Shown here one piece after another: positions 15,789 to 60,624 of a stretch of 64,000 bases of DNA. Source of the DNA: Novosphingobium sp. CECT 9465 (GTDB taxonomy: Bacteria; Pseudomonadota; Alphaproteobacteria; Sphingomonadales; Sphingomonadaceae); the NCBI RefSeq assembly GCF_920987055.1, contig NZ_CAKLBX010000003.1:1-64000 (forward strand), given 5' to 3'. The notes under the pieces were generated by a model. The model was given only the letters and a program-made list of their open reading frames with translations, did no database searches and was not told where the DNA came from. Numbering within the stretch: position 1 is the stretch's first letter; each line of letters opens with the position of its first letter. The position numbers were made by a program, and so were the translations under genes.

Positions 15789-17749
15789 TGCGTCTGCTCG
15801 CGTTGATCCGGGCAATGCTCTCGTTGCGGCTGCTCTCCGCGCTCGCGGCGCTGCTGATCCCTGCTGCGGCAATCGCCGAACCCGGCGACGTGCAAACCGC
15901 ATGGCGGCTGCTCGACTATATGGCCGTCGATTATGGCGGCGCGTCGCCAACGGTCGGATCAAGAGCACGTCGGAATATGCCGAGATGACGGAGTTCGCCG
16001 CGTCGGTCTCGACACGGCTTCAGGGCCTGCCGGCGAAGCCGGAGCGTCAAGCCCTCATCCAGCGGGCTGCCACCTCCAGGCGGTGATCGCGAAAAGGGAC
16101 CGACTGAACAGGTGGCAACATTGGCGCACGGGCTCGCGGCCGATCTGTTGCGCGCCTACCCGGTGCCGCTCGCGCCCGATAAGGCTCCGAACCTCGTCTC
16201 CAGCGATGCCCTGTTCCGACAATCCTGCGCGTCCTGCCACGGGATGACGGGCAACGGCCGTGGCCCTGACGCCGCCAAGCTCGCTACGCCCCCGATTGCT
16301 TTCACCGATGCCGAGCGCGCGCGCCAGCGCAGCGTGTTCGCGCTCTATCAGGTGGTGACGCAAGGCATCGACGGGACCGCGATGCAGAGCTTCGCCGATC
16401 TGCCCAACGATCAGCGCTGGGCGTTAGCATTCCGAGCCGGGAGCTTCGCCTTCACGGATGCGCAGGCGCGCGAAGGCGAGCGGCTTTGGAAATCCGACCC
16501 GACCCTTCGCCGGCGCATTCCGGACCTGAAAACCCTGGTCGCGCTCACCCGGCCGCGCTCGGCGCGGCGATCGGCGACGCCAAGGCTGACCCAGTGCTCG
16601 CGTTCCTGCGTCGTCATCCCGAACAGGTGATACAACAGGCTCCCGGCTCGCTCGCGGTCGCCCGCGCCAAACTCGCCGAAAGCGTGGCGGCTGCGCGGCG
16701 CGGCGATGCGCGCATGGCGAAAGAGCTGGCGCTGTCGGCCTATCTCGATGTGGTTCGAGCCGATCGAGCCAACACTCACCGCGCGCGACGCGACGCTGAT
16801 GGGTCGAATCGAGGGCGCGATGGGGGAGTTCCGCGCCTCGATCGACCGGGGCGCGTCGCCCGATGATCTCGCGGAGAAGGTCGCAGTACTGGGCGGCCTT
16901 TTCGACGATGCGGAAGCGGCGCTCGCGCCTGATGCCGCCACCGAAGCGTCCACGTTCCTGGGCGCGTTCACGATCCTGCTGCGTGAAGGGCTCGAAGCCC
17001 TGCTCATCGTTGTCGCCATGATCGCGTTCCTGCGTAAAGCCGAGCGCGGCGAGGCGCTGCGGTACGTGCATGGCGGCTGGGTCAGCGCGATCATCGCGCG
17101 GGATCACCTGGGCGGTCGCCACCTATGCGATCGGGATCAGCGGTGCGAGCCGGGAGCTGACGGAAGGGTTTGGCTCGCTGTTCGCCGCGGTCGTGCTGCT
17201 CTCGGTCGGGATTTGGATGCACGGCAAGGCGCAGGCCGATCAGTGGCAGCGCTATATTCGCGAGAAGATGTCGCGGGCGCTCTCGGGCGGGTCGGGCTGG
17301 TTCCTGTTCGGCTGGCGTTCGTCGTAGTTTATCGCGAGGTCTTCGAGACGATCCTGTTCTATGCCGCGCTTTCGGCGCAAGGTGACAACGGGATGCTTCT
17401 CGCGGGGGCCGGGTCGGCGATTGGACTGCTCAGCCTGATCGCTTGGGCCATGCTTCGCTACAGTCGCAAGCTGCCGATCGCGCAGTTCTTCCGCTATAGC
17501 TCCTGGCTCATGGCGGTCCTGACCGTCGTGCTGGCGGGTAAAGGCGTCGCCGCGCTCCAGGAAGCCGGCCTTATCAACATCGCACCGCTCGCGGACGTGC
17601 CACGGCTGTCGATGCTCGGCGTGTTTCCCACTTGGCAATCGGTGCTGGCGCAACTCCTGATGGCGGTCGCCATTGCGGTCGGGTTCGCCTGGAACGGGCG
17701 CGACCGATCCCGCTCGGGTTCCGGCTCAGTGACCCTTGGTTCGAATTAG
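15788..17749 (+). pseudogene. Cytochrome c-FTR1 iron permease fusion, copy 1, frameshifted
   Basis: This is a second copy of the intact gene at 52467-54419. It starts at GTG 15788 with a signal peptide (LSALAALLIPAAAIAE), then a periplasmic helical region and a c-type haem site SCASCHG near 16225. The C-terminal FTR1 permease contains both RExxE motifs, REGLEALLIV near 16983 and YREVFETILF near 17330. Using the intact copy as a ruler, single-base breaks fall near 15943, 16070, 16550, 16752, 17097 and 17312. Between breaks the protein sequence is highly similar to copy 2, including silent differences, so loss of function is either very recent or an assembly artefact. It probably imports iron (or another metal) using a periplasmic electron-transfer domain. 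Confidence 0.75.
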
Positions 17750-20635: not shown

Positions 20636-23600
20636 ATGATCGCCCGTATCGTAACCTGGGCGGTCGAGAAGCGCTGGCTAGTCCTGCTCCTCACCGTCAT
20701 CGTCGCCGCCATCGGCGCCTTTTCCCTCTACCGGCTACCGATCGACGCGGTGCCGGACATCACCAACAATCAGGTCCAGATCAACGTCCGCGCGCCTGCC
20801 CTCTCGCCCGAGCTGGTCGAGAAGCAGGTGTCGTTTCCAATCGAAACCGCGCTCGCCGGCACCCCCGGCCTGGAATATACGCGCTCGTTGAGCCGCAACG
20901 GCTTCGCGCAGATCACGGCGGTCTTTTCGGACGCGACGGACATCTATTTCGCCCGCCAGCAGGTGGGCGAGCGTCTGCGGGGCGTGCAAGAGAATCTGCC
21001 CGACGGCGTGAACCCTGAAATGGGTCCGATCGCGACAGGCCTGGGCGAGGTGTACATGTACACCGTTCGTCTCGATCATCGCGAGGACGACAAGCACAAG
21101 CCCGGTGAACCGGGCCAACAGCCCGATGGCAGCTACATCACGCCAGAGGGCGAGCGACTGACGACCGAAGAGGACAAGGCGACCTACCTGCGCACCGCGC
21201 AGGACTGGATCGTGACGCCGCTTCTGAAGACCACACCGGGCCTCGCCGGTGTCGACTCGATTGGCGGTTACGCCAAGCAGTTCCTCGTCGTGCCCGACGT
21301 GCAGAAGCTGGCCTCGCTCGGCATCACGCTGACGGACCTGGGAAATGCGCTGGAGCGCAATAACACCAGCGTCGGCGGTGGCTTCGTCAATCGCAATGGC
21401 GAAGGTCTGGCTGTTCGCTCGGATGCGCTCGTTCGCAATGCCAGCGAGTTGGCCAGGACCGTGATCGCGACACGTAACGGCGTGCCGATCACGGTCGAAC
21501 AAGTTGCGACTGTGAAGACGGGTCAGGCGATCCGCATGGGTTCGGCATCGGAGAACGGTACCGAAGTCGTCGTCGGCACGGCGATCATGCGGATCGGCGA
21601 GAACAGCCGCATCGTGTCGACCGCGGTCGCTGAGAAACTGAAGACGATCAACGCTTCGCTGCCTCCTGACGTCGTAATTCAGCCGGTGCTGAACCGCACC
21701 GAGCTGGTCAATTCGACGATCAAGACGGTCGCGAAAAACCTGTCCGAAGGCGCGGTGCTGGTCATCGTCGTGCTCTTCCTGCTGCTCGGCAATTTCCGCG
21801 CGGCGCTGATCGCGGCGCTGGTCATCCCGATCACCATGATGCTGACCGGCTTCGGGATGCTGCGTGCCGGCGTCTCGGCGAACCTGATGAGCCTTGGCGC
21901 CTTGGACTTTGGTCTGATCGTCGACGGCGCTGTCATCATCGTGGAGAACGCGCTGAGACGGCTTGCCGAGCAACAGCATCATGAAGGTCGCTTGCTGAGC
22001 GTAAGGGAACGGCTCGCGACCGTGGCGGCCGCCGCGCGCGAGATGATCCGCCCCTCGGTATACGGGCAGGCGATCATCATCCTTGTCTATGTGCCGCTGC
22101 TCACGCTGACCGGCGTGGAGGGCAAGACGTTCGTGCCGATGGCGCTCACCGTCATCATCGCGCTCGCCTTCGCCTTCATCCTCTCGATCACCTTCGTGCC
22201 GGCCATGATCGCGATCTGGCTGTCGAAGAAGGTTGAGGAGAAGGACGGCCGCATCATCACGTGGCTGAAGAAGCGCTACGAGCCCGGTCTTGACCGGGCA
22301 ATGAAGCGCCCGACCCTGACGATCGGCGCGGGTGTCGGCAGCCTTGTCGTGGCGGCGCTCGCCTTCACGACGCTCGGCTCGGTGTTCCTGCCACAGCTCG
22401 ATGAAGGCGACCTGCTGATCCAATCGCTGCGCATCCCCGCCACGTCGGTCCAGCAAAGTCAGGCGATGCAGGTGCCGATCGAACGGATGATGTCGAAGCA
22501 GCCGGAGGTGGCGTTCGTCTATTCCAAGACGGGCACGGCGGAACTCGCTTCCGACCCGATGCCGCCCAACGCCACCGACATGTTCGTCATCCTGAAGCCG
22601 CGCAAGGATTGGCCAAATCCCGATCTTGCCAAGGAGGAGCTGGTCAGCCGGATCGAGGGAAATCTCGCAAAAATCCCGGGCAACGCCTATGAGATCACCC
22701 AGCCTATCCAAATGCGCTTCAACGAGCTGATCGCCGGCGTGCGCGGTGACATCGCGGTGAAGGTGTTCGGCGACGACTTCAACACGATGAACCGGACGGC
22801 CGAGCAAATCGCGGCGGTGCTGCGCAGAACGCAAGGCGCAGCGGACGTGAAGGTGGAGCAGACGACCGGTCTTCCCATGCTCGACATTCGCGTCAACCGC
22901 GACGCGATGGCGCGGTTGGGCGTTACGGCTCAGGATGTGCAGGACACCGTGACTGCGACGATCGGCGGGCGAACATCGGGCCAGATCTTCGAGGGCGACC
23001 GTCGCTTCCCCGTGGTGATCCGCCTGTCGGAGGCGCAGCGTGCCGACATCGGCCTGCTCCAACAGGTGCAGGTGCCGGTGGCAGGCGGCGGCTATGTACC
23101 GCTGTCCAGCGTCGCCGAGATCAAGGTGGTCGATGGTCCGAACCAGATCAGCCGCGAGAACGGCAAGCGGCGCGTGGTGGTGCAAGCCAACGTGCGTGGC
23201 CGCGACGTCGGATCCGTCGTGGCGGATGCGCAGGCGGCGATCGGCAGCCAACTCCGGCTGCCTGCCGGCACCTATCTCGAATGGGGCGGCCAGTTCGAGA
23301 ACCTCCAATCGGCAAGCGAACGGCTGAAGCTGGTCATTCCGGCTTGCTTCATCTTGATCCTGCTGCTCCTCTACGGGGCGTTGGGATCGGTCCGCGACGC
23401 CGCGATCGTGTTCACCGGCGTGCCTTTCGCGCTGGTGGGCGGCGTCCTGTTGCTGTTCCTGCGGGGCATGGACTTCTCGATCTCGGCGGCAGTGGGCTTC
23501 ATCGCCCTCTCGGGCATCGCGGTCCTCAACGGCCTCGTCATGGTCAGCTCGATCCAAGATCTGATCCGATCAGGGATGAGCCGCGAGGAAGCCGCGCATG

Positions 23601-23881
23601 TTGGCGCGATGCAGCGTCTGCGACCCGTCATCATGACCGCGCTAGTCGCCAGCCTCGGCTTCGTGCCGATGGCGCTGGGCGAAGGCGCCGGCGCAGAGGT
23701 TCAAAAGCCTTTGGCGACGGTCGTCATCGGCGGTCTGATCTCGGCGACGCTTCTTACGCTGTTCGTGCTGCCGACACTCTATGCCCGGTTCGGGCAGAAA
23801 GTGATCGAGAAACCCGAGCACTACAATGAGGAGCATGAAGGGGACGACCACGGTCAGACCTTCGTGAACAACTTGGCCTGA
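20636..23881 (+). CDS. czcA: RND heavy-metal efflux pump CzcA
   Basis: This is a 1081-residue inner-membrane proton/metal antiporter of the HME-RND family. It starts MIARIVTWAVEKRWLVLLLT in the first membrane helix. The divalent-cation signature DFGLIVDGAVIIVEN in helix 4 (about 21907-21951) carries the essential Asp, Asp and Glu residues and points to Zn/Co/Cd rather than Cu(I)/Ag(I). A His-containing insertion in the periplasmic loop (DHREDDKHKPGEPGQQPDGS) may bind metal. Twelve membrane helices are expected, and the second half repeats the fold. A C-terminal acidic/His tail (PEHYNEEHEGDDHGQTFVNN) is present. It is intact and full length, third in the czcCBA set. A 15-bp-stem hairpin follows the stop immediately. 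Confidence 0.95.
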   Translation: MIARIVTWAVEKRWLVLLLTVIVAAIGAFSLYRLPIDAVPDITNNQVQINVRAPALSPELVEKQVSFPIETALAGTPGLEYTRSLSRNGFAQITAVFSDATDIYFARQQVGERLRGVQENLPDGVNPEMGPIATGLGEVYMYTVRLDHREDDKHKPGEPGQQPDGSYITPEGERLTTEEDKATYLRTAQDWIVTPLLKTTPGLAGVDSIGGYAKQFLVVPDVQKLASLGITLTDLGNALERNNTSVGGGFVNRNGEGLAVRSDALVRNASELARTVIATRNGVPITVEQVATVKTGQAIRMGSASENGTEVVVGTAIMRIGENSRIVSTAVAEKLKTINASLPPDVVIQPVLNRTELVNSTIKTVAKNLSEGAVLVIVVLFLLLGNFRAALIAALVIPITMMLTGFGMLRAGVSANLMSLGALDFGLIVDGAVIIVENALRRLAEQQHHEGRLLSVRERLATVAAAAREMIRPSVYGQAIIILVYVPLLTLTGVEGKTFVPMALTVIIALAFAFILSITFVPAMIAIWLSKKVEEKDGRIITWLKKRYEPGLDRAMKRPTLTIGAGVGSLVVAALAFTTLGSVFLPQLDEGDLLIQSLRIPATSVQQSQAMQVPIERMMSKQPEVAFVYSKTGTAELASDPMPPNATDMFVILKPRKDWPNPDLAKEELVSRIEGNLAKIPGNAYEITQPIQMRFNELIAGVRGDIAVKVFGDDFNTMNRTAEQIAAVLRRTQGAADVKVEQTTGLPMLDIRVNRDAMARLGVTAQDVQDTVTATIGGRTSGQIFEGDRRFPVVIRLSEAQRADIGLLQQVQVPVAGGGYVPLSSVAEIKVVDGPNQISRENGKRRVVVQANVRGRDVGSVVADAQAAIGSQLRLPAGTYLEWGGQFENLQSASERLKLVIPACFILILLLLYGALGSVRDAAIVFTGVPFALVGGVLLLFLRGMDFSISAAVGFIALSGIAVLNGLVMVSSIQDLIRSGMSREEAAHVGAMQRLRPVIMTALVASLGFVPMALGEGAGAEVQKPLATVVIGGLISATLLTLFVLPTLYARFGQKVIEKPEHYNEEHEGDDHGQTFVNNLA

Positions 23882-46774: not shown

Positions 46775-47785
46775 CTACGTCGGCGGTACGCTCCGAGCGG
46801 GATACAGCCCGGCGATGGCGGACGACAATCCACTGTCGCGGTCGCGCAACATGTTATGAATTGCGGTCGCAGCGATCGCCGCTTGTCCGGCTGCGACGCT
46901 GATCTGATCGAGCCCTTCCACGGCGTCGCCGACTGCGTAGAGACCCTTAACCGAGGTTTGTTGATGGGCATTGGTCAGCACGCACCCCGATTCGCTGAGC
47001 TGTGCTCCGAGCAAAGAGGCAAGCCGCGTCCGAGGCGACGAGCCGAGCGCGGGGTAAAGCGTGTCGAATTGTAGCTCCAGGCCATTGGCCAGCCTCACCT
47101 CGACACAGTCGCCAAGACGCAACTGCTCGACAGGCGAGGGGGCGACATCAATGCCCTGCTGGTCCAGCTTGGCAAGTTCGGTCGGCCCAAGATCGAGCGA
47201 GTGTTCCGCCAGAAGCGTGACCTTGGCTCCATAAGCCCTCAGGAATTCGGCTTCTTCAGCGCCGTGACCACTGCCGCCGAGCACCGCCACGTTCATCCGC
47301 CGGGCCTCATAACCATCGCAGATCGGACAATAGCGGAGAAGCCCACGCGCCACGCCGATGTCATGCATCGCATCAGGCATCTCGGGACGCCGATTGACGA
47401 CGCCCGTCGCAAGGACAACGGTCCGCGCATACAGGACGTTCAGTTCGCAGCTTGCCGAGAAGTGGTCGCCTGACGCGACGATTGCGTCGATCTCACCGCT
47501 CTGGATCGTCCCGCCATATTCGCGCAGCTGAGCCTGCAGGCGGGCAAGAAACGCGACGCCGGAAATGCCGCCGGGAAATCCTGGCAGGTTGTGCGAGCGC
47601 GGGATGGACGCGGCGCGCCCTGCCGCCGCATCGTAGACGACGCAGCTCCTGAGAAACCGCGACAGATAGATCGCGGTCATGAGGCCCGCTGGACCGCCGC
47701 CCACTATCAGACAGTCGATGACCTCCTCAGGATCTCCAGTCCAGCCCTGATCGGTCAACCGCAACCTCATCATTACCCCGCGCAT
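46775..47785 (-). CDS. Thioredoxin-reductase-like FAD/NAD(P) oxidoreductase
   Basis: This is a flavoprotein of about 336 residues. I place the start at ATG 47785 (MRGVMMRLRLTDQGWTGDPE) because the Rossmann motif VIDCLIVGGGPAGLMTAIYL follows at once; an in-frame extension to 47965 is unlikely to be translated. It has a CxxC-like redox pair in RYCPICDGYEARR, a second nucleotide site VAVLGGSGHGAEEAEFLRAY and the C-terminal FAD motif VKGLYAVGDAVEGLDQISVA. This matches TrxB-like reductases. Whether it reduces thioredoxin or a metal-bound disulfide in the copper cluster is unknown. It is transcribed opposite to its neighbours. Confidence 0.8.
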   Translation of the reverse strand: MRGVMMRLRLTDQGWTGDPEEVIDCLIVGGGPAGLMTAIYLSRFLRSCVVYDAAAGRAASIPRSHNLPGFPGGISGVAFLARLQAQLREYGGTIQSGEIDAIVASGDHFSASCELNVLYARTVVLATGVVNRRPEMPDAMHDIGVARGLLRYCPICDGYEARRMNVAVLGGSGHGAEEAEFLRAYGAKVTLLAEHSLDLGPTELAKLDQQGIDVAPSPVEQLRLGDCVEVRLANGLELQFDTLYPALGSSPRTRLASLLGAQLSESGCVLTNAHQQTSVKGLYAVGDAVEGLDQISVAAGQAAIAATAIHNMLRDRDSGLSSAIAGLYPARSVPPT

Positions 47786-47986
47786 GCGCCCGTCCAGGCC
47801 CGCGGCCACAGCTCGTTTAAGGGGAGACGCAGTGAAAAAGCGCTCCATGCTCCTTCTGAATACGCGCCGACGCCGCCGACCCCTCATCGAGAGTTCGAGC
47901 GTCGGCACGGAAAAAAAGATCGTGAGGGGTGACCCGCCCGGCTGCGTAATAACAGGTGAGCCCAATTGAAATGGAGATTATCCTAA

Positions 47987-48355
47987 ATGCGCCGCTTGTT
48001 CATCACGACTGCCGCCGCCGCCCTGTTCTTCGCAGGCGGCGTGGCGAACGCGCATCCGAAGCTGGTGTCCGCCAGCCCCGCCGCCAACGCGGCCGTCGCG
48101 ACCCCCGAGAAGATCAGCCTTCAGTTCAGCGAGAAACTCGTGCCGGCTTTCTCCAAGGCCGACCTTACCATGGCAGCGATGCCGGGCATGGCGGCCATGA
48201 AAATGCCCAGCAGCGCCGCAGTCGGCGCCGATGGCCGGACGCTCACCATCACCCCGAAGCAGCGCCTCCCGCGTGGGCGCTACAGCGTCGGCTGGCAGGT
48301 CGTCTCTAGCGATACACACAAAATCACCGGCAGCTACAACTTCACGGTGAAGTGA
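47987..48355 (+). CDS. copC: Periplasmic copper chaperone CopC
   Basis: This is a 122-residue protein with signal peptide MRRLFITTAAAALFFAGGVA. The mature N-terminus begins after NA with HPKLVSASPAANAAV, placing the Cu(II)-binding His at residue 1 as in CopC. The Met-rich Cu(I) loop (MAAMPGMAAMKMP) is present, and the C-terminal strand has SSDTHKITGSYNFTVK with the second conserved His. It is followed after 4 nt by copD. It is full length for the family. Confidence 0.9.
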   Translation: MRRLFITTAAAALFFAGGVANAHPKLVSASPAANAAVATPEKISLQFSEKLVPAFSKADLTMAAMPGMAAMKMPSSAAVGADGRTLTITPKQRLPRGRYSVGWQVVSSDTHKITGSYNFTVK

Positions 48356-49514: not shown

Positions 49515-52220
49515 ATGAACAAGGGTGGCAAAGTCATGACCGATGGCAAACGCAGTGAAGCCGGCAGCGGCCAGGGTGGCGAAGTCGTCCTCATCACGGG
49601 TGCGAGCGGTTTTATCGCCGCAGCGCTGATTGCCCAGCTCGGCGAGCGCTACACGGTCGTCGGCCTTGATCGCGCCGGCCCTCCCGACCCACCGCCGCCC
49701 GCGGCGGCGATCGACATAGACCTCGGGTCAGACGAAGCGGTCCGAGTTGCGCTTGACGAGGTGCGCGCACGGTACGGCAACCGCATCGCCTCGGTGATCC
49801 ACCTCGCCGCCTATTATGATATCACGGGTGACCCCAATCCGCTCTACGACAAGGTCACCGTGCAGGGCACCCGCCGGCTGATTGACGGGCTGCAATCGTT
49901 CGAAGTCGGACAATTCGTCTTCGCCAGCACGATGCTCGTTCATAAGCCGACCCCCACACCCGACGAGCGCATCAACGAGGACTCGCCGATCGGCGCGTCC
50001 TGGGCCTATCCGCAGTCCAAGGTCGACGCCGAGACATTGCTGCATGAGCGCCACGGAAACATCCCCGTCGTTTATATGCGCGCCGCCGGAGTTTACGACG
50101 ACGACGGACGCTCGGCTTTTCTCGCGCAGCAGATATCGCAGATTTACGAGCACCGCCTGATTTCGCATTTTTATCCCGGCATGCTGTGTGCGGCGCAGTC
50201 ATCGGTGCACCGCGACGACTTGGCTGACGCCGTGCTGCGTCTGGTCGATCGGCGGCACGAACTGCCGTCAGAACTGCCGCTGCTCATCGGCGAGCCCGAC
50301 GCACCCGGCTATGCCGAGATCCAGGACATCGTCGGCGAGGCGCTCCACGGCGAGGGCTGGAAGACGATCCGGATTCCGCAGCCGCTCGCGAAAGCCGGGA
50401 TCATCCTGCAGAACGAAGCGCTCGGCAGCGACGACTTCATCCAGCCCTGGATGATCGACAGCAGCAACGACCACTATATCCTCGATATTTCACGCGCCCG
50501 CTTGCTGCTCGGTTGGGAACCGAAGCATCGCCTCCGGGACACGCTGCCGACGATCGTCGCCGCGCTGAAGCGCCACCCGCGGGCCTGGTATCGGAACAAC
50601 AAGCTTAACGAGAATCTGGTTGCCTGGCACGATAAGCTAAAGGCCGAACCTGTAGCGCCGGGCCAACAACCCGCAGCGGCAGGCGGTGGAATGGCCGACA
50701 TGGATCACGGGGCTGCGGACCATAGCAGCATGGACCATGCTGCCATGGGGCACCGACCTGGCGCGGCGGACATGGCGATGACCGGTCACGGTGCACACGG
50801 CGATCACATGGCCATAATGGACCGCGACGAGCGCCGTGCGCGCTGGGCTCTTTACGCAAACATCGGTCTTGGGCTGTGGCTCGCCTCCAGCCCGCTTATC
50901 TACGACTCCGTGACCACTCACAGTGTCGGCGAGGCGGCGCGCTTCGTAACTATTGATCGCGGGCTGCCGTCGATCGAGTGGCGGGCGAACGCGCTGGCCA
51001 TCAGCGATGTCGTCAGCGGCCTCGCCATCGTGCTGTTCGGCGCGCTGTCGCTCGTTCCGCGCACCAAGACATGGGCGCAGTGGGCGGTCGCGTTCGTCGG
51101 CATCTGGCTGTTCTTCGCCCCGCTGATCTTCTGGAGCCCGAGCGCCGCTCAGTACAACAACAACCTGCTCATCGGCTCGGCCGTGATCGCCCTGTCGGTG
51201 CTCGTGCCGATGATGCCGGGCATGAGCATGGCGGGCATGATGGACCCCAAGAACATCCCGCCCGGCTGGACCTATTCGCCATCCACCGACGCACAGCGGC
51301 TGCCGATCGTCGCCATGGGTCTGATCGGCCTTCTCACCTCGCGCATCCTCACCGCCTACCAACTGGGGCATATTGACGGCGTTTGGGAGCCGTTTTTCGC
51401 CGGCTCCCTGAGCGATCCACGCAACGGCACCGAGGAGATCATCACCTCGGACATGTCCAAGGCCTGGCCGATTCCCGATGGTGGGCTCGGCACGGTCAGC
51501 TATGTCCTCGAGATCCTGATGGCGGTAATGGGCACCCGCGACCGCTGGCGGACCATGCCGTGGATGGTGACCTTCTTCGGCATCCTTGTCATCCCGCTCG
51601 GCGTCATCAGCATCTATTTCATCATCAGTCAGCCCATCGTCATCGGCACATGGAGCACGCTGGCGCTGATCGCCGCGCTCGCCATGCTGATCATGATCCC
51701 CTTCGCGCTCGACGAGGTGATTGCGATGGGTCAGTTCCTTCTCTGGGCGCGCCGGCAAGGCAAACCGCTGATCCGCACCTTCTTCCAGGGTGACGCGATA
51801 GAGGCGGGAGCGGTGGACGCGTCGGACGCGATGGCCTCGCCAAGCACCTTCTGGGCGGACGCAAAGAAGGGACTGACCCTGCCATGGACGCTGACTGCGA
51901 GCATCGTCATCGGCGTCCTGCTGATGCTGACCCGAATACTGTTCGGCACGGAAGGCGGTATGGCGAACAGCGATCACGTTGTGGGTGCGCTGGTCATAAC
52001 GGTCGCGATCATCGCCACCGCAGAAGTTGCCCGCGCGCTGCGGCTGATCAACGTCGCGTTCGGAGCCTGGCTTGTGGCCGCGCCTTTCCTCCTCGACGGC
52101 GTTGGTCACCTTGGGGCCGTGGCCTCGGTCGTAGCCGGCATTGCGCTCGTCGGCCTCAGCTTTCCAAGGGGAAAGCGCAGCGCCGAGCATTATGCAAGCT
52201 GGGACAAGTACGTGATCTGA
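49515..52220 (+). CDS. Epimerase-like domain fused to copper-style linker and membrane domain
   Basis: This is a 901-residue fusion. Residues about 20-375 are an extended short-chain dehydrogenase/epimerase: NAD site VLITGASGFIAAALIAQLGE, active-site region FVFASTMLVHKPTP and ASWAYPQSKVDAETLLHERH (the expected Tyr-x-x-x-Lys is YPQSK). Residues about 395-430 are a Met/His-rich linker (MADMDHGAADHSSMDHAAMG). The remainder is a polytopic membrane domain of about 12 helices with SPW-like repeats (GLGLWLASSPLIYD; GIWLFFAPLIFWSP; FGAWLVAAPFLLDG). A central part (VAMGLIGLLTSRILTAYQLG; ILMAVMGTRDRWRTMPWM) recalls DoxX/vitamin K epoxide reductase-type proteins. The linker resembles that of CopA/CopB. 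Start choice: ATG 49515; ATG 49536 (MTDGKRS) is possible. Confidence 0.7.
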   Translation: MNKGGKVMTDGKRSEAGSGQGGEVVLITGASGFIAAALIAQLGERYTVVGLDRAGPPDPPPPAAAIDIDLGSDEAVRVALDEVRARYGNRIASVIHLAAYYDITGDPNPLYDKVTVQGTRRLIDGLQSFEVGQFVFASTMLVHKPTPTPDERINEDSPIGASWAYPQSKVDAETLLHERHGNIPVVYMRAAGVYDDDGRSAFLAQQISQIYEHRLISHFYPGMLCAAQSSVHRDDLADAVLRLVDRRHELPSELPLLIGEPDAPGYAEIQDIVGEALHGEGWKTIRIPQPLAKAGIILQNEALGSDDFIQPWMIDSSNDHYILDISRARLLLGWEPKHRLRDTLPTIVAALKRHPRAWYRNNKLNENLVAWHDKLKAEPVAPGQQPAAAGGGMADMDHGAADHSSMDHAAMGHRPGAADMAMTGHGAHGDHMAIMDRDERRARWALYANIGLGLWLASSPLIYDSVTTHSVGEAARFVTIDRGLPSIEWRANALAISDVVSGLAIVLFGALSLVPRTKTWAQWAVAFVGIWLFFAPLIFWSPSAAQYNNNLLIGSAVIALSVLVPMMPGMSMAGMMDPKNIPPGWTYSPSTDAQRLPIVAMGLIGLLTSRILTAYQLGHIDGVWEPFFAGSLSDPRNGTEEIITSDMSKAWPIPDGGLGTVSYVLEILMAVMGTRDRWRTMPWMVTFFGILVIPLGVISIYFIISQPIVIGTWSTLALIAALAMLIMIPFALDEVIAMGQFLLWARRQGKPLIRTFFQGDAIEAGAVDASDAMASPSTFWADAKKGLTLPWTLTASIVIGVLLMLTRILFGTEGGMANSDHVVGALVITVAIIATAEVARALRLINVAFGAWLVAAPFLLDGVGHLGAVASVVAGIALVGLSFPRGKRSAEHYASWDKYVI

Positions 52221-52253
52221 AAGTATCTTCAATCACTGCTTAGCCTCATCGAA

Positions 52254-58330: not shown

Positions 58331-59270
58331 ATGAATGAGGGTGGCAGATTGATGACCGACGGTGAGCGCAGTGGGTCAGGGAGCGACAAGGACGCCCTCG
58401 AAGTCGTCCTCATCACAGGTGCGAGCGGCTTTACAGCCGCCGCGCTAGTTGCCCAGCCGAGGGAACGCTACACGGTTGTCGGCCTGGATCGTGTCGGTCC
58501 TCCAGACCCGCGGCCGCCCGCGTCGGCAATCGGCTATGACATCACGGGCAACCCCAATCCGCTCTACGACAAGGCCACCGTGCACGACACCCGCCGGCTG
58601 ATTGACGGGCTCCGGTCGTTCGACGTCGAGCAATTCGTCTTCGCCAGCACAATGCTGGTTCATAAGCCTGCCGCCACTCCGGAAGAGCGCATCAGCGAGG
58701 AGTCGCCAATCGGTGCGTCCTAGGCGTATCCACAGTCGAAAGTTGTTGCCGAAGCACTGCTGCACGCGAGGCGCGGTAAGATTCCCGTCGTCTTCCTCCC
58801 CGCCGCCGGAGTTTACGACGGCGACGGGCGCTCGGCGTTACTCGCGCAGCAGATATCCCAGATCTACGAGCATCGCGTGATCTCGCACTTTTATCACGGG
58901 ATGCTGCGTGCGGCATCGGCGCACCGCGACGACTTGGCCGATGCCGTGCTTCGCCTGGTCGATCGGCGGCACGACCTTTCGGCCGAGCTGCCGCTGCTCA
59001 TCGGCGCGCCCGGCTATGCCGAGATCCAGGACATCGTGGGCGAGGCGCTCGACGGCGAGGTCCGGAAGACTATCCGGATTCCGTAGCCGCTCGCGAAGGC
59101 CGGGATCATCCTGCAGAACGAAGCGCTCGGCAGCGACGACTTCATCCAGCCCTGGATGATCGACAGCAGCAACGACCACTATATCCTCGATATCTCCCGC
59201 GCGCGTTCGCTGCTCGGATGGTAGCCGAAACACAGTCTCCGCGACACGCTGCCCGCGATCGTCACCGCTC
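58331..59270 (+). pseudogene. Epimerase-domain pseudogene with three in-frame amber codons
   Basis: This is a partial duplicate of the epimerase part of the fusion at 49515. The start region matches (MNEGGRLMTDGERSGSGSDK against MNKGGKVMTDGKRSEAGSGQ), as do VVLITGASGFTAAALVAQPR and ITGNPNPLYDKATVHDTRRL. About 35 codons are deleted after PASAI. The frame then stays the same throughout, interrupted only by TAG at 58721 (W in the intact gene, GASWAYPQ), 59084 (Q, IPQPLAK) and 59222 (E, GWEPKH). Similarity ends near 59270; linker and membrane domains are absent. It lies between copZ and the MFS gene. Confidence 0.85.
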
Positions 59271-59289
59271 GCTTTCACACTCACTGCCG

Positions 59290-60624
59290 CTACTGGATCG
59301 GCCAGCGTGGATGCAGCTCGTCGATCACGAACGCGTGGCGGGCGCGACCGCCCGGATGCCCTTCGAGAAGATGGGGATGATCGAGTGGCAGATCGTCATG
59401 CCTGTGTGCTACCACTTCGGCGTCTTCACTGGGCCAGATGCGGAACGCAATCACCGTGCCGATTAGCGCCAGCACAGCGGCCGCAGCGAACGCGGCGCCC
59501 ATGCCGCCGAATGCGCCGATCTGACCTGCCAGTGGATAGGCAATTAGCCAGCACACATGGCTAAGCGCGAATTGCGCTGCAAACAGGGCGGGCCGATCCT
59601 GCCCGCCCGAAGAGCGGCGTAGCAGCCGGCCACCAGGCGTAATGCTGGCCGAATAGGCAATGCCAAGTGCTAACCAGCCCACGAGGATCACGCCCCAATA
59701 ATGGGGGGCGGCGTGGTCCTGCCAAGACAAGGCGAGCGCCGCCAGCGTGACCGTCATAGCCGAAGCGGCCGACAGCATCACTGTCCGATCGGAGAGCCGT
59801 TCAAGCAAACGCGGCAGCAACAGCGCCGCCAGCATCGAGCCGCCACCGAAAGCGGCGAGCGTGATCGCCATCGCGCTCTGTCCACGCCCAAGGGCCGACT
59901 GTACCAGCACTGGCGTATTAACAATCACCATCGCACTGGCCGCGGCGGCTGCAAGAGTCACGGCGAGCAGGCCACGAAGCCGAGGCGTTTTGAGGTAAAG
60001 CCGGGCGCCGCGCGTGGTATTATAATAGATGCCGCCCGTCGGCCGGCTGGCAGCGGCCCGCGGAAGCACGGTCGTCAACACAAGAAGGGCCGAACAGGCA
60101 AAACCGATTGCAGTGCCTGAGAACAGCCAGTGGAAGCTCATAACCGTAAGCAGCGCGGCAGCGAGCATCGGGCTTGTCAGGCTTTCCATGTCATAGGCGA
60201 GGCGAGAGAGGGACAGCGCCTTAGTATAGTCCTGTTCCTCGGGCAGCACGTCAGGGATGGTCGCCTGGAAGGTCGGCGTGAACCCTGCCGAAGCCGATTG
60301 CAGCACGAAGATCAGTACGTAGATTTGCCACACCTGATCGATGAAGGGCAGCGCGAGCGCGACCAGGCAACGGATCAGGTCCATCGCGATGAGGAAACTA
60401 CGGCGCGGCAATCGGTTTGCATAGGCGCCGACAATCGGGGCCACACCGATATAAGCGATCATCTTGATCGCCATCGCTGTGCCCAGCACGGCACCCGCGT
60501 CAGCACCAGCGATGTCATAGGCGAGCAGGCCCAACGCGACGGTAGCGAGGCCGGTGCCGATCAGCGCGATGATCTGGGCCAAGAACAGATGGCGATAGGT
60601 TCGGTTGGCCAATATTTTGAGCAT
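59290..60624 (-). CDS. MFS metal exporter with His-rich C-terminus (NreB-like)
   Basis: This is a 444-residue major-facilitator protein with 12 hydrophobic segments, starting MLKILANRTYRHLFLAQIIA. The loop 2-3 region reads GVAPIVGAYANRLPRRSFLI, a MFS-like basic loop. The cytoplasmic C-terminus is His-rich (AHRHDDLPLDHPHLLEGHPG; ARHAFVIDELHPRWP), as in NreB-type nickel exporters. Export of Ni or Co is a reasonable inference, not proved. It is downstream of the YqaA-type gene in the same direction, 37 nt apart. The pseudogene at 58331 ends just before its stop. Confidence 0.75.
   Translation of the reverse strand: MLKILANRTYRHLFLAQIIALIGTGLATVALGLLAYDIAGADAGAVLGTAMAIKMIAYIGVAPIVGAYANRLPRRSFLIAMDLIRCLVALALPFIDQVWQIYVLIFVLQSASAGFTPTFQATIPDVLPEEQDYTKALSLSRLAYDMESLTSPMLAAALLTVMSFHWLFSGTAIGFACSALLVLTTVLPRAAASRPTGGIYYNTTRGARLYLKTPRLRGLLAVTLAAAAASAMVIVNTPVLVQSALGRGQSAMAITLAAFGGGSMLAALLLPRLLERLSDRTVMLSAASAMTVTLAALALSWQDHAAPHYWGVILVGWLALGIAYSASITPGGRLLRRSSGGQDRPALFAAQFALSHVCWLIAYPLAGQIGAFGGMGAAFAAAAVLALIGTVIAFRIWPSEDAEVVAHRHDDLPLDHPHLLEGHPGGRARHAFVIDELHPRWPIQ

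Follow-up and report, generated by a model that had tools for sequence, protein, structure and literature searches.

The window analysed here, 64,000 nucleotides of Novosphingobium sp. CECT 9465 (contig NZ_CAKLBX010000003.1, positions 1 to 64,000), contains in a copper cluster a gene that joins an extended short-chain dehydrogenase/reductase (SDR) to a membrane domain with SPW repeats and a vitamin K epoxide reductase (VKOR) fold. What is new is that this VKOR fold lacks VKOR chemistry, that the family comprises two types, and that unfused forms occur on haloarchaeal plasmids beside GH15 and SDR genes. The gene and its parts, with residues numbered on the called 901-residue protein, are as follows.

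49515–52220, plus strand: the complete fused gene, encoding the SDR, the Met/His linker and the SPW/VKOR-like/SPW membrane part; 901 aa from the called start, 894 aa from the more probable start at 49536
49587–50624, plus strand: extended SDR (epimerase-type), residues 25–370; Pfam PF01370, conservation, Foldseek RmlB/GalE-type matches (best E 5.7e-13)
50628–50828, plus strand: Met/His-rich disordered linker, residues 372–438
50823–51203, plus strand: membrane helices 1–4 with the N-terminal SPW repeat (Pfam stretch 492–561), residues 437–563; PF03779 at 49.5 bits on this part alone, model helices
51204–51287, plus strand: Met-rich loop VPMMPGMSMAGMMDPKNIPPGWTYSPST, residues 564–591, with 6 Met; marks the copper type
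51303–51707, plus strand: VKOR-fold domain without the VKOR cysteines, residues 597–731; PF07884, VIA-align match to Synechococcus and human VKOR
51654–51665, plus strand: position of the canonical CXXC of VKOR transmembrane helix 4 (TM4), here Ser714-Thr-Leu-Ala717; from an alignment with CTLC-keeping relatives and one canonical VKOR-DsbA protein
51894–52160, plus strand: C-terminal SPW repeat, residues 794–882, helices 9–12; PF03779 and model

The reading frame (49515–52220) is uninterrupted over its 901 residues. Homologues begin at the second Met (MTD...), so that the probable start is 49536, 7 codons downstream of the called one; AAGGGTGG lies directly upstream of it. The opposite strand is also open over the second half of the gene (531 aa, 50637–52232), and minus-strand frame 1 has stops within the first half. 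Pfam assigned to the 901-residue protein, above the curated cut-offs, Epimerase (PF01370, residues 25–249, 66 bits), VKOR (PF07884, residues 597–731, 75.5 bits) and SPW (PF03779, three stretches, 68.7 bits against a cut-off of 31.5); when each flank of the VKOR part was searched alone, SPW exceeded its cut-off both before and behind it. The epimerase-like domain and the SPW and VKOR parts proposed in an earlier note on this DNA were thus recovered, whereas its DoxX-like repeats were not: no DoxX match was found in the protein at E≤1. None of the 17 NCBIfam families listed reached its cut-off, the best being galE (36.9 versus 262.3 bits). An AlphaFold2 model of the whole protein, built from a 75-sequence alignment, had a mean predicted local distance difference test score (pLDDT) of 84.8 and a predicted template modelling score of 0.58. 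We counted 12 membrane-length helices in it by eye, in agreement with the approximately 12 expected beforehand. The linker, whose Met/His richness had also been pointed out, had a pLDDT below 50 at residues 376–428. It contains 16 Met+His in 67 residues, compared with 4.9% over the remaining sequence (p 1.2e-7, binomial), including two MDH motifs and one MGH.

The fusion is real. Searching 5.8 billion proteins gave 7998 scored candidates and 1867 relatives, and Epimerase, VKOR and SPW were found together in 119 of 120 relatives among the matches listed (read from the table). The earlier note had allowed for an assembly artefact joining what are always two genes elsewhere; fused forms proved to be common, and truly unfused forms also exist. 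In the literature searched we found no description of the SDR/linker/SPW-VKOR-SPW architecture, no function for it, as had been stated, no experiment on this protein and no occurrence of the term 'SPW repeat'. The genome (4.39 Mb) holds one full copy of the gene. Positions 58331–59341 on the plus strand additionally hold a degenerate copy restricted to the SDR half, in two pieces with 72% and 79% identity to residues 1–69 and 100–372, the second piece carrying three in-frame TAG codons.

In VKOR, a quinone enzyme fold, the enzymes have a CXnC cysteine pair in the loop between TM1 and TM2 and a CXXC at the start of TM4 (PMC11208910). The window protein has the four-helix fold of VKOR and VKOR-DsbA proteins (PF07884) and resembles them in the position of the loop and of the TM4 site. 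Unlike them, the family lacks the loop cysteine pair: among 336 VKOR domains, the loop (residues 614–658) had no Cys in 335 and one Cys in the remaining one, hence a pair in none. The TM4 CXXC is retained in 145 of the 336 relatives; in the window protein it reads SxxA. The VKOR part is moreover embedded between SPW repeats, the protein has no thioredoxin-type domain, and the family has invariant residues of its own (Q616, S648, D655, R677, R679, W683, Q706 and E734, with E666 nearly always present). It shares its repeats before and behind the VKOR part with SPW repeat proteins (PF03779), from which it differs by the fusion with VKOR and SDR.

We considered the possibility that the protein is an active VKOR/DsbB-type disulfide generator, or a quinone reductase working through cysteines. 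The fold itself and the retained CXXC would favor this, and since the latter persists in 145 relatives, some of them may perform quinone-thiol chemistry. Yet the loop pair is missing throughout, and the sole cysteine of the window protein, Cys225, is located inside the SDR domain; because of this, its sequence excludes VKOR-type thiol redox chemistry in the VKOR part, and we regard this possibility as extremely unlikely. Of the redox or metal-coupled function suggested previously, the part that would rest on VKOR thiols can therefore be dropped for the window protein. Database records call the gene 'vitamin K epoxide reductase' or 'epimerase'; the first chemistry is the one ruled out here. The family shows a membrane enzyme fold reused after loss of the catalytic cysteines, and offers an entry to how such reuse happens.

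The SDR domain shares with UDP-glucose 4-epimerase and dTDP-glucose 4,6-dehydratase (extended SDRs, PF01370) the Rossmann fold, the TGxxGF motif, the Ser/Thr-Tyr-Lys catalytic set (S138/T139, Y165, K169) and an Asp after strand 2 (D52), which in SDRs is a sign of NAD preference. It differs from them in being joined to a 12-helix membrane domain and in scoring far below every NCBIfam cut-off listed. The nucleotide motif TGxxGxxG reads TGASGFIA (T28-G-x-x-G32-F-I-A35), with the first two Gly kept and Ala at the third, a position occupied by Gly in 169, Ala in 56 and a gap in 10 of 235 fused sequences. Tyr165 and Lys169 are conserved in 232 of these. In three Cupriavidus-type fused copies (L113, L161 and L177), Leu/Met replace the Tyr/Lys, making the SDR a pseudoenzyme within the family. 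With the whole model as query, Foldseek gave SDRs in the 50 matches listed, mostly of sugar-nucleotide types.

The copper cluster of the window consists, upstream, of genes for a multicopper oxidase, CopB, DUF305, DUF411 and DUF2231 proteins, a TrxB-like FAD protein (minus strand), CopC and CopD, followed by the fused gene and then by a cytochrome c/FTR1 permease. Beyond this, all on the minus strand, lie genes for a four-helix copper-binding protein, a regulator of the MerR type and a P-type ATPase for heavy metals that has two HMA domains. The position between copD and the iron permease gene, as given in the earlier note, is correct. The nearest neighbors are as follows.

46775–47965, minus strand: TrxB-like FAD oxidoreductase, a recurrent neighbor; Pyr_redox_2, thioredoxin-reductase model match below its cut-off
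47987–48355, plus strand: CopC; PF04234
48360–49286, plus strand: CopD; PF05425
52467–54419, plus strand: cytochrome c/FTR1 permease; PF03239, PF13442
54546–54893, minus strand: four-helix-bundle copper-binding protein (Csp-like); PF03860, the gene at the same position in NZ_CP018821 being annotated so

On a conjugative plasmid from Sphingomonas koreensis, the genes from CopB through the four-helix copper protein stand in identical order, apart from an inserted IS110 transposase gene. We then compared the surroundings of the best 80 of 342 confirmed loci, using for context counts the 50 of at least 18 kb, with 40 control stretches, each 20 kb long and drawn from four genomes that carry the gene; copper context meant at least one of eight copper genes. 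Copper genes were found near 43 of the 50 long loci versus 3 of the 40 controls, and near 32 of 39 when the near relatives of the window (L001–L016) were removed. The TrxB-like oxidoreductase gene was close to 14 of the 50 and to none of the controls. As the 50 loci are biased to the clade of the window, loci from genome samples were taken as a second set, comprising 36 usable ones after exclusion of the window's own copy, one G468 fragment and a repeat of G826. Here a copper gene was present in 14 of 36.

These 36 loci fell into two groups. Where the loop (residues 560–591) has 4 or more Met, 12 of 13 loci had copper genes, compared with 2 of 23 with fewer Met (Fisher p 8.7e-7, a value inflated by the relatedness of the loci and obtained with a threshold chosen after inspection of the data). 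Ten of these 13 Met-loop loci encode linkers of 39–133 residues with 8 or more Met+His, and the remaining three (L196, L198 and L199) have 5–6. None of the 23 others reaches 8; their linkers measure 10–30 residues, mostly 23, with at most one Met. The sole Met-loop locus in which no copper gene was detected, L215 (16 kb), has two HMBD-type (heavy-metal-binding domain) CPMHP modules in its linker. In the wider, clade-biased fused set, short contigs included, copper genes were found for 80 and not for 17 copies with a Met-rich loop, and for 2 and not for 23 with a Met-poor one. By these sequence features, the family is of two types, one copper-linked (Met-rich loop, mostly with Met/His or HMBD modules) and the other mostly not. 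The co-occurrence with copper genes that the earlier note had proposed to examine thus holds, chiefly for one of the two. HMBD proteins (PF19335) share their domain with the SDR-less relative P0194, where it precedes the membrane part, and, judging from the CPMHP motifs, with L215, where it lies in the linker; the window protein differs in having Met/His units in place of the HMBD.

One alternative reading is a copper sink or chaperone, in which linker and Met loop would retain Cu(I) at the membrane and make it available to CopD, FTR1 or the P-type ATPase, with the SDR as a passenger. The metal-binding modules do co-vary with copper context, the Cupriavidus-type copies have lost the SDR Tyr/Lys, and unfused forms adjoin copper genes. 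Against this reading, Tyr/Lys are retained in 232 of 235 fused copies, and the other type shares these SDR and membrane residues although it lacks the metal modules. We consider a sink or chaperone unlikely.

The other type has its own company. Cytochrome c oxidase subunit I genes were found at 6 of its 23 loci (L183, L190, L205, L210, L211 and L216, five of which also have CtaG and coxB; Pfam COX1, COX2, CtaG), versus none of the 13 Met-loop loci and none of the 40 controls; among the best 80 loci there was one (L078). This neighborhood, the quinone-enzyme nature of the VKOR fold (PMC11208910) and an NDUFA9-like SDR among some haloarchaeal neighbors would fit a cysteine-free route by which electrons or hydride pass from NADH via the SDR and the VKOR-type cavity to quinone, which would sustain respiration under copper poisoning. 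Yet Pfam and NCBIfam found no single-electron-carrying domain in the window protein, and no close kinship was detected between the NDUFA9-like SDR and the fused one. We consider such a transfer quite improbable.

Other surroundings were seen at single loci. An other-type copy on a Sphingomonas paucimobilis plasmid (L174), which has also lost the TM4 CXXC, lies in a stress island with Hsp20, YfdX, a universal stress protein, K+ efflux and GH130. The Sinorhizobium medicae copy has catalase, DNA ligase and ZIP transporter genes as neighbors, and in Microvirga sp. VF16 (L175) the fused gene adjoins CcdA, DsbA, SCO and TlpA-type genes, surroundings of oxidative folding and copper delivery.

Our preferred reading, held tentatively, is that the protein may be a copper-tuned, membrane-tethered, NAD(H)-dependent extended SDR whose substrate is a membrane component and which works as an oxidoreductase or an epimerase. 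In bacterial VKORs the VKOR loop is periplasmic. Together with the lack of a signal peptide on the SDR (judged by eye) and the Arg/Lys in the short loops between helices, this suggests a predicted topology with both termini inside and linker and Met loop cytosolic. The SDR would then face the cytosol. The VKOR-type cavity would be open to the bilayer and accommodate a lipid-like substrate, an isoprenoid, a quinone or a lipid-linked sugar, for the SDR to oxidize, reduce or epimerize. Linker and Met loop may bind Cu(I) at the inner face, as their composition and, in some relatives, homology to HMBD would suggest, and the copper-type enzyme would thereby vary with copper in its activity, stability or placement. 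The outcome might be an adjustment of the envelope or respiratory chain under copper stress. The anatomy of the window protein and its loss of VKOR chemistry are far more certain than this mechanism.

The glycan modification and metal sensing proposed in the earlier note are possible roles. In the former, the SDR would epimerize a sugar nucleotide or lipid-linked sugar, with a GH15 trehalase-like neighbor in the same pathway. The structural matches are mostly sugar-nucleotide SDRs, yet the best sequence match is an SDR without a named substrate. GH15 genes were near 9 of the best 80 loci and PRK07109-type classical SDR genes near 2, both absent from the 40 controls; in Microvirga and Falsiroseomonas, among others, the target gene is directly followed by a member of a looser cluster, read as classical SDRs, and in many cases then by GH15. 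Among seven haloarchaeal plasmid records (not counting another plasmid of Haloprofundus and a further one of Natrinema), GH15, VKOR and SDR genes were adjacent in six, with a four-helix copper protein upstream in five of the seven; in Haloprofundus, the NDUFA9-like SDR is joined in the cluster by a multicopper oxidase and also a P-type ATPase. The order is four-helix copper protein – GH15 – SDR – fused gene on two Cupriavidus plasmids and four-helix copper protein – VKOR – SDR – GH15 in Stutzerimonas, where GH15 is thus close by, and Ca. Manganitrophus has SPW/VKOR – GH15 – SDR amid P-type ATPases. Against this, GH15 occurs in just 1 of the 36 genome-sampled loci, and none was found in the window cluster, the one match of the genome (33% identity) being on another contig. 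Glycan modification by the window protein seems rather unlikely to us. In Pontibacter, the VKOR gene is followed by a trehalase-like annotated gene, with a four-helix copper protein and copper ATPase further on; this neighbor was rejected as GH15, since it encodes an MGH1-type hydrolase, and it weighs against a glycan pathway as well.

The rarity of GH15 in the genome samples and the location of the match on another contig indicate that the module is part of the company of the family, not of the window gene itself. A more speculative view, which we consider doubtful, is that a copper-tolerance module not described before, made up of a four-helix copper protein, GH15, the SPW/VKOR membrane protein and SDRs, might extend across domains from haloarchaea to Proteobacteria, the gene being its mobile form, fused in bacteria. 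The VKOR fold would have given up its disulfide relay and gained a new active site served by the NAD-dependent SDR, and one branch would have gained copper-binding modules gating it. Six haloarchaeal plasmids (L171 and L219–L223) carry the GH15 – SPW/VKOR – SDR cluster, with a four-helix copper protein upstream in five of the six.

The membrane half is sporadic in genome samples, being found in 5 of 289 genomes for the class, 21 of 249 for the family and 6 of 398 for the phylum, all three counts including the window genome; with P0194 as query, it was found in 4 of 399 genomes in the order of G826. It is present on 136 of 72,556 plasmids at E≤1e-20, of which 73 are from Sinorhizobium; one homologue lies on pSymB of Sinorhizobium meliloti 1021. 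SDR-less forms exist, some with an N-terminal HMBD (P0194); some may be cut by contig ends, and annotated plasmid genes are separate in Stutzerimonas, Ca. Manganitrophus, Pontibacter and haloarchaea. The protein is conserved on plasmids across bacteria and, unfused, across haloarchaea, and a sequence signature largely splits its copper-linked members from the others, which opens an unstudied side of copper tolerance to testing. On pBIL of Paraburkholderia fungorum (L176), the match is in two pieces and only the C-terminal part is annotated, so that the gene looks broken there. Elsewhere in the window, positions 16112–17749 and 20636–23881 hold a second cytochrome c/FTR1 pair, in two reading frames, together with a gene for a 1081-aa RND efflux protein (ACR_tran), a block that forms a further metal-resistance-like region.
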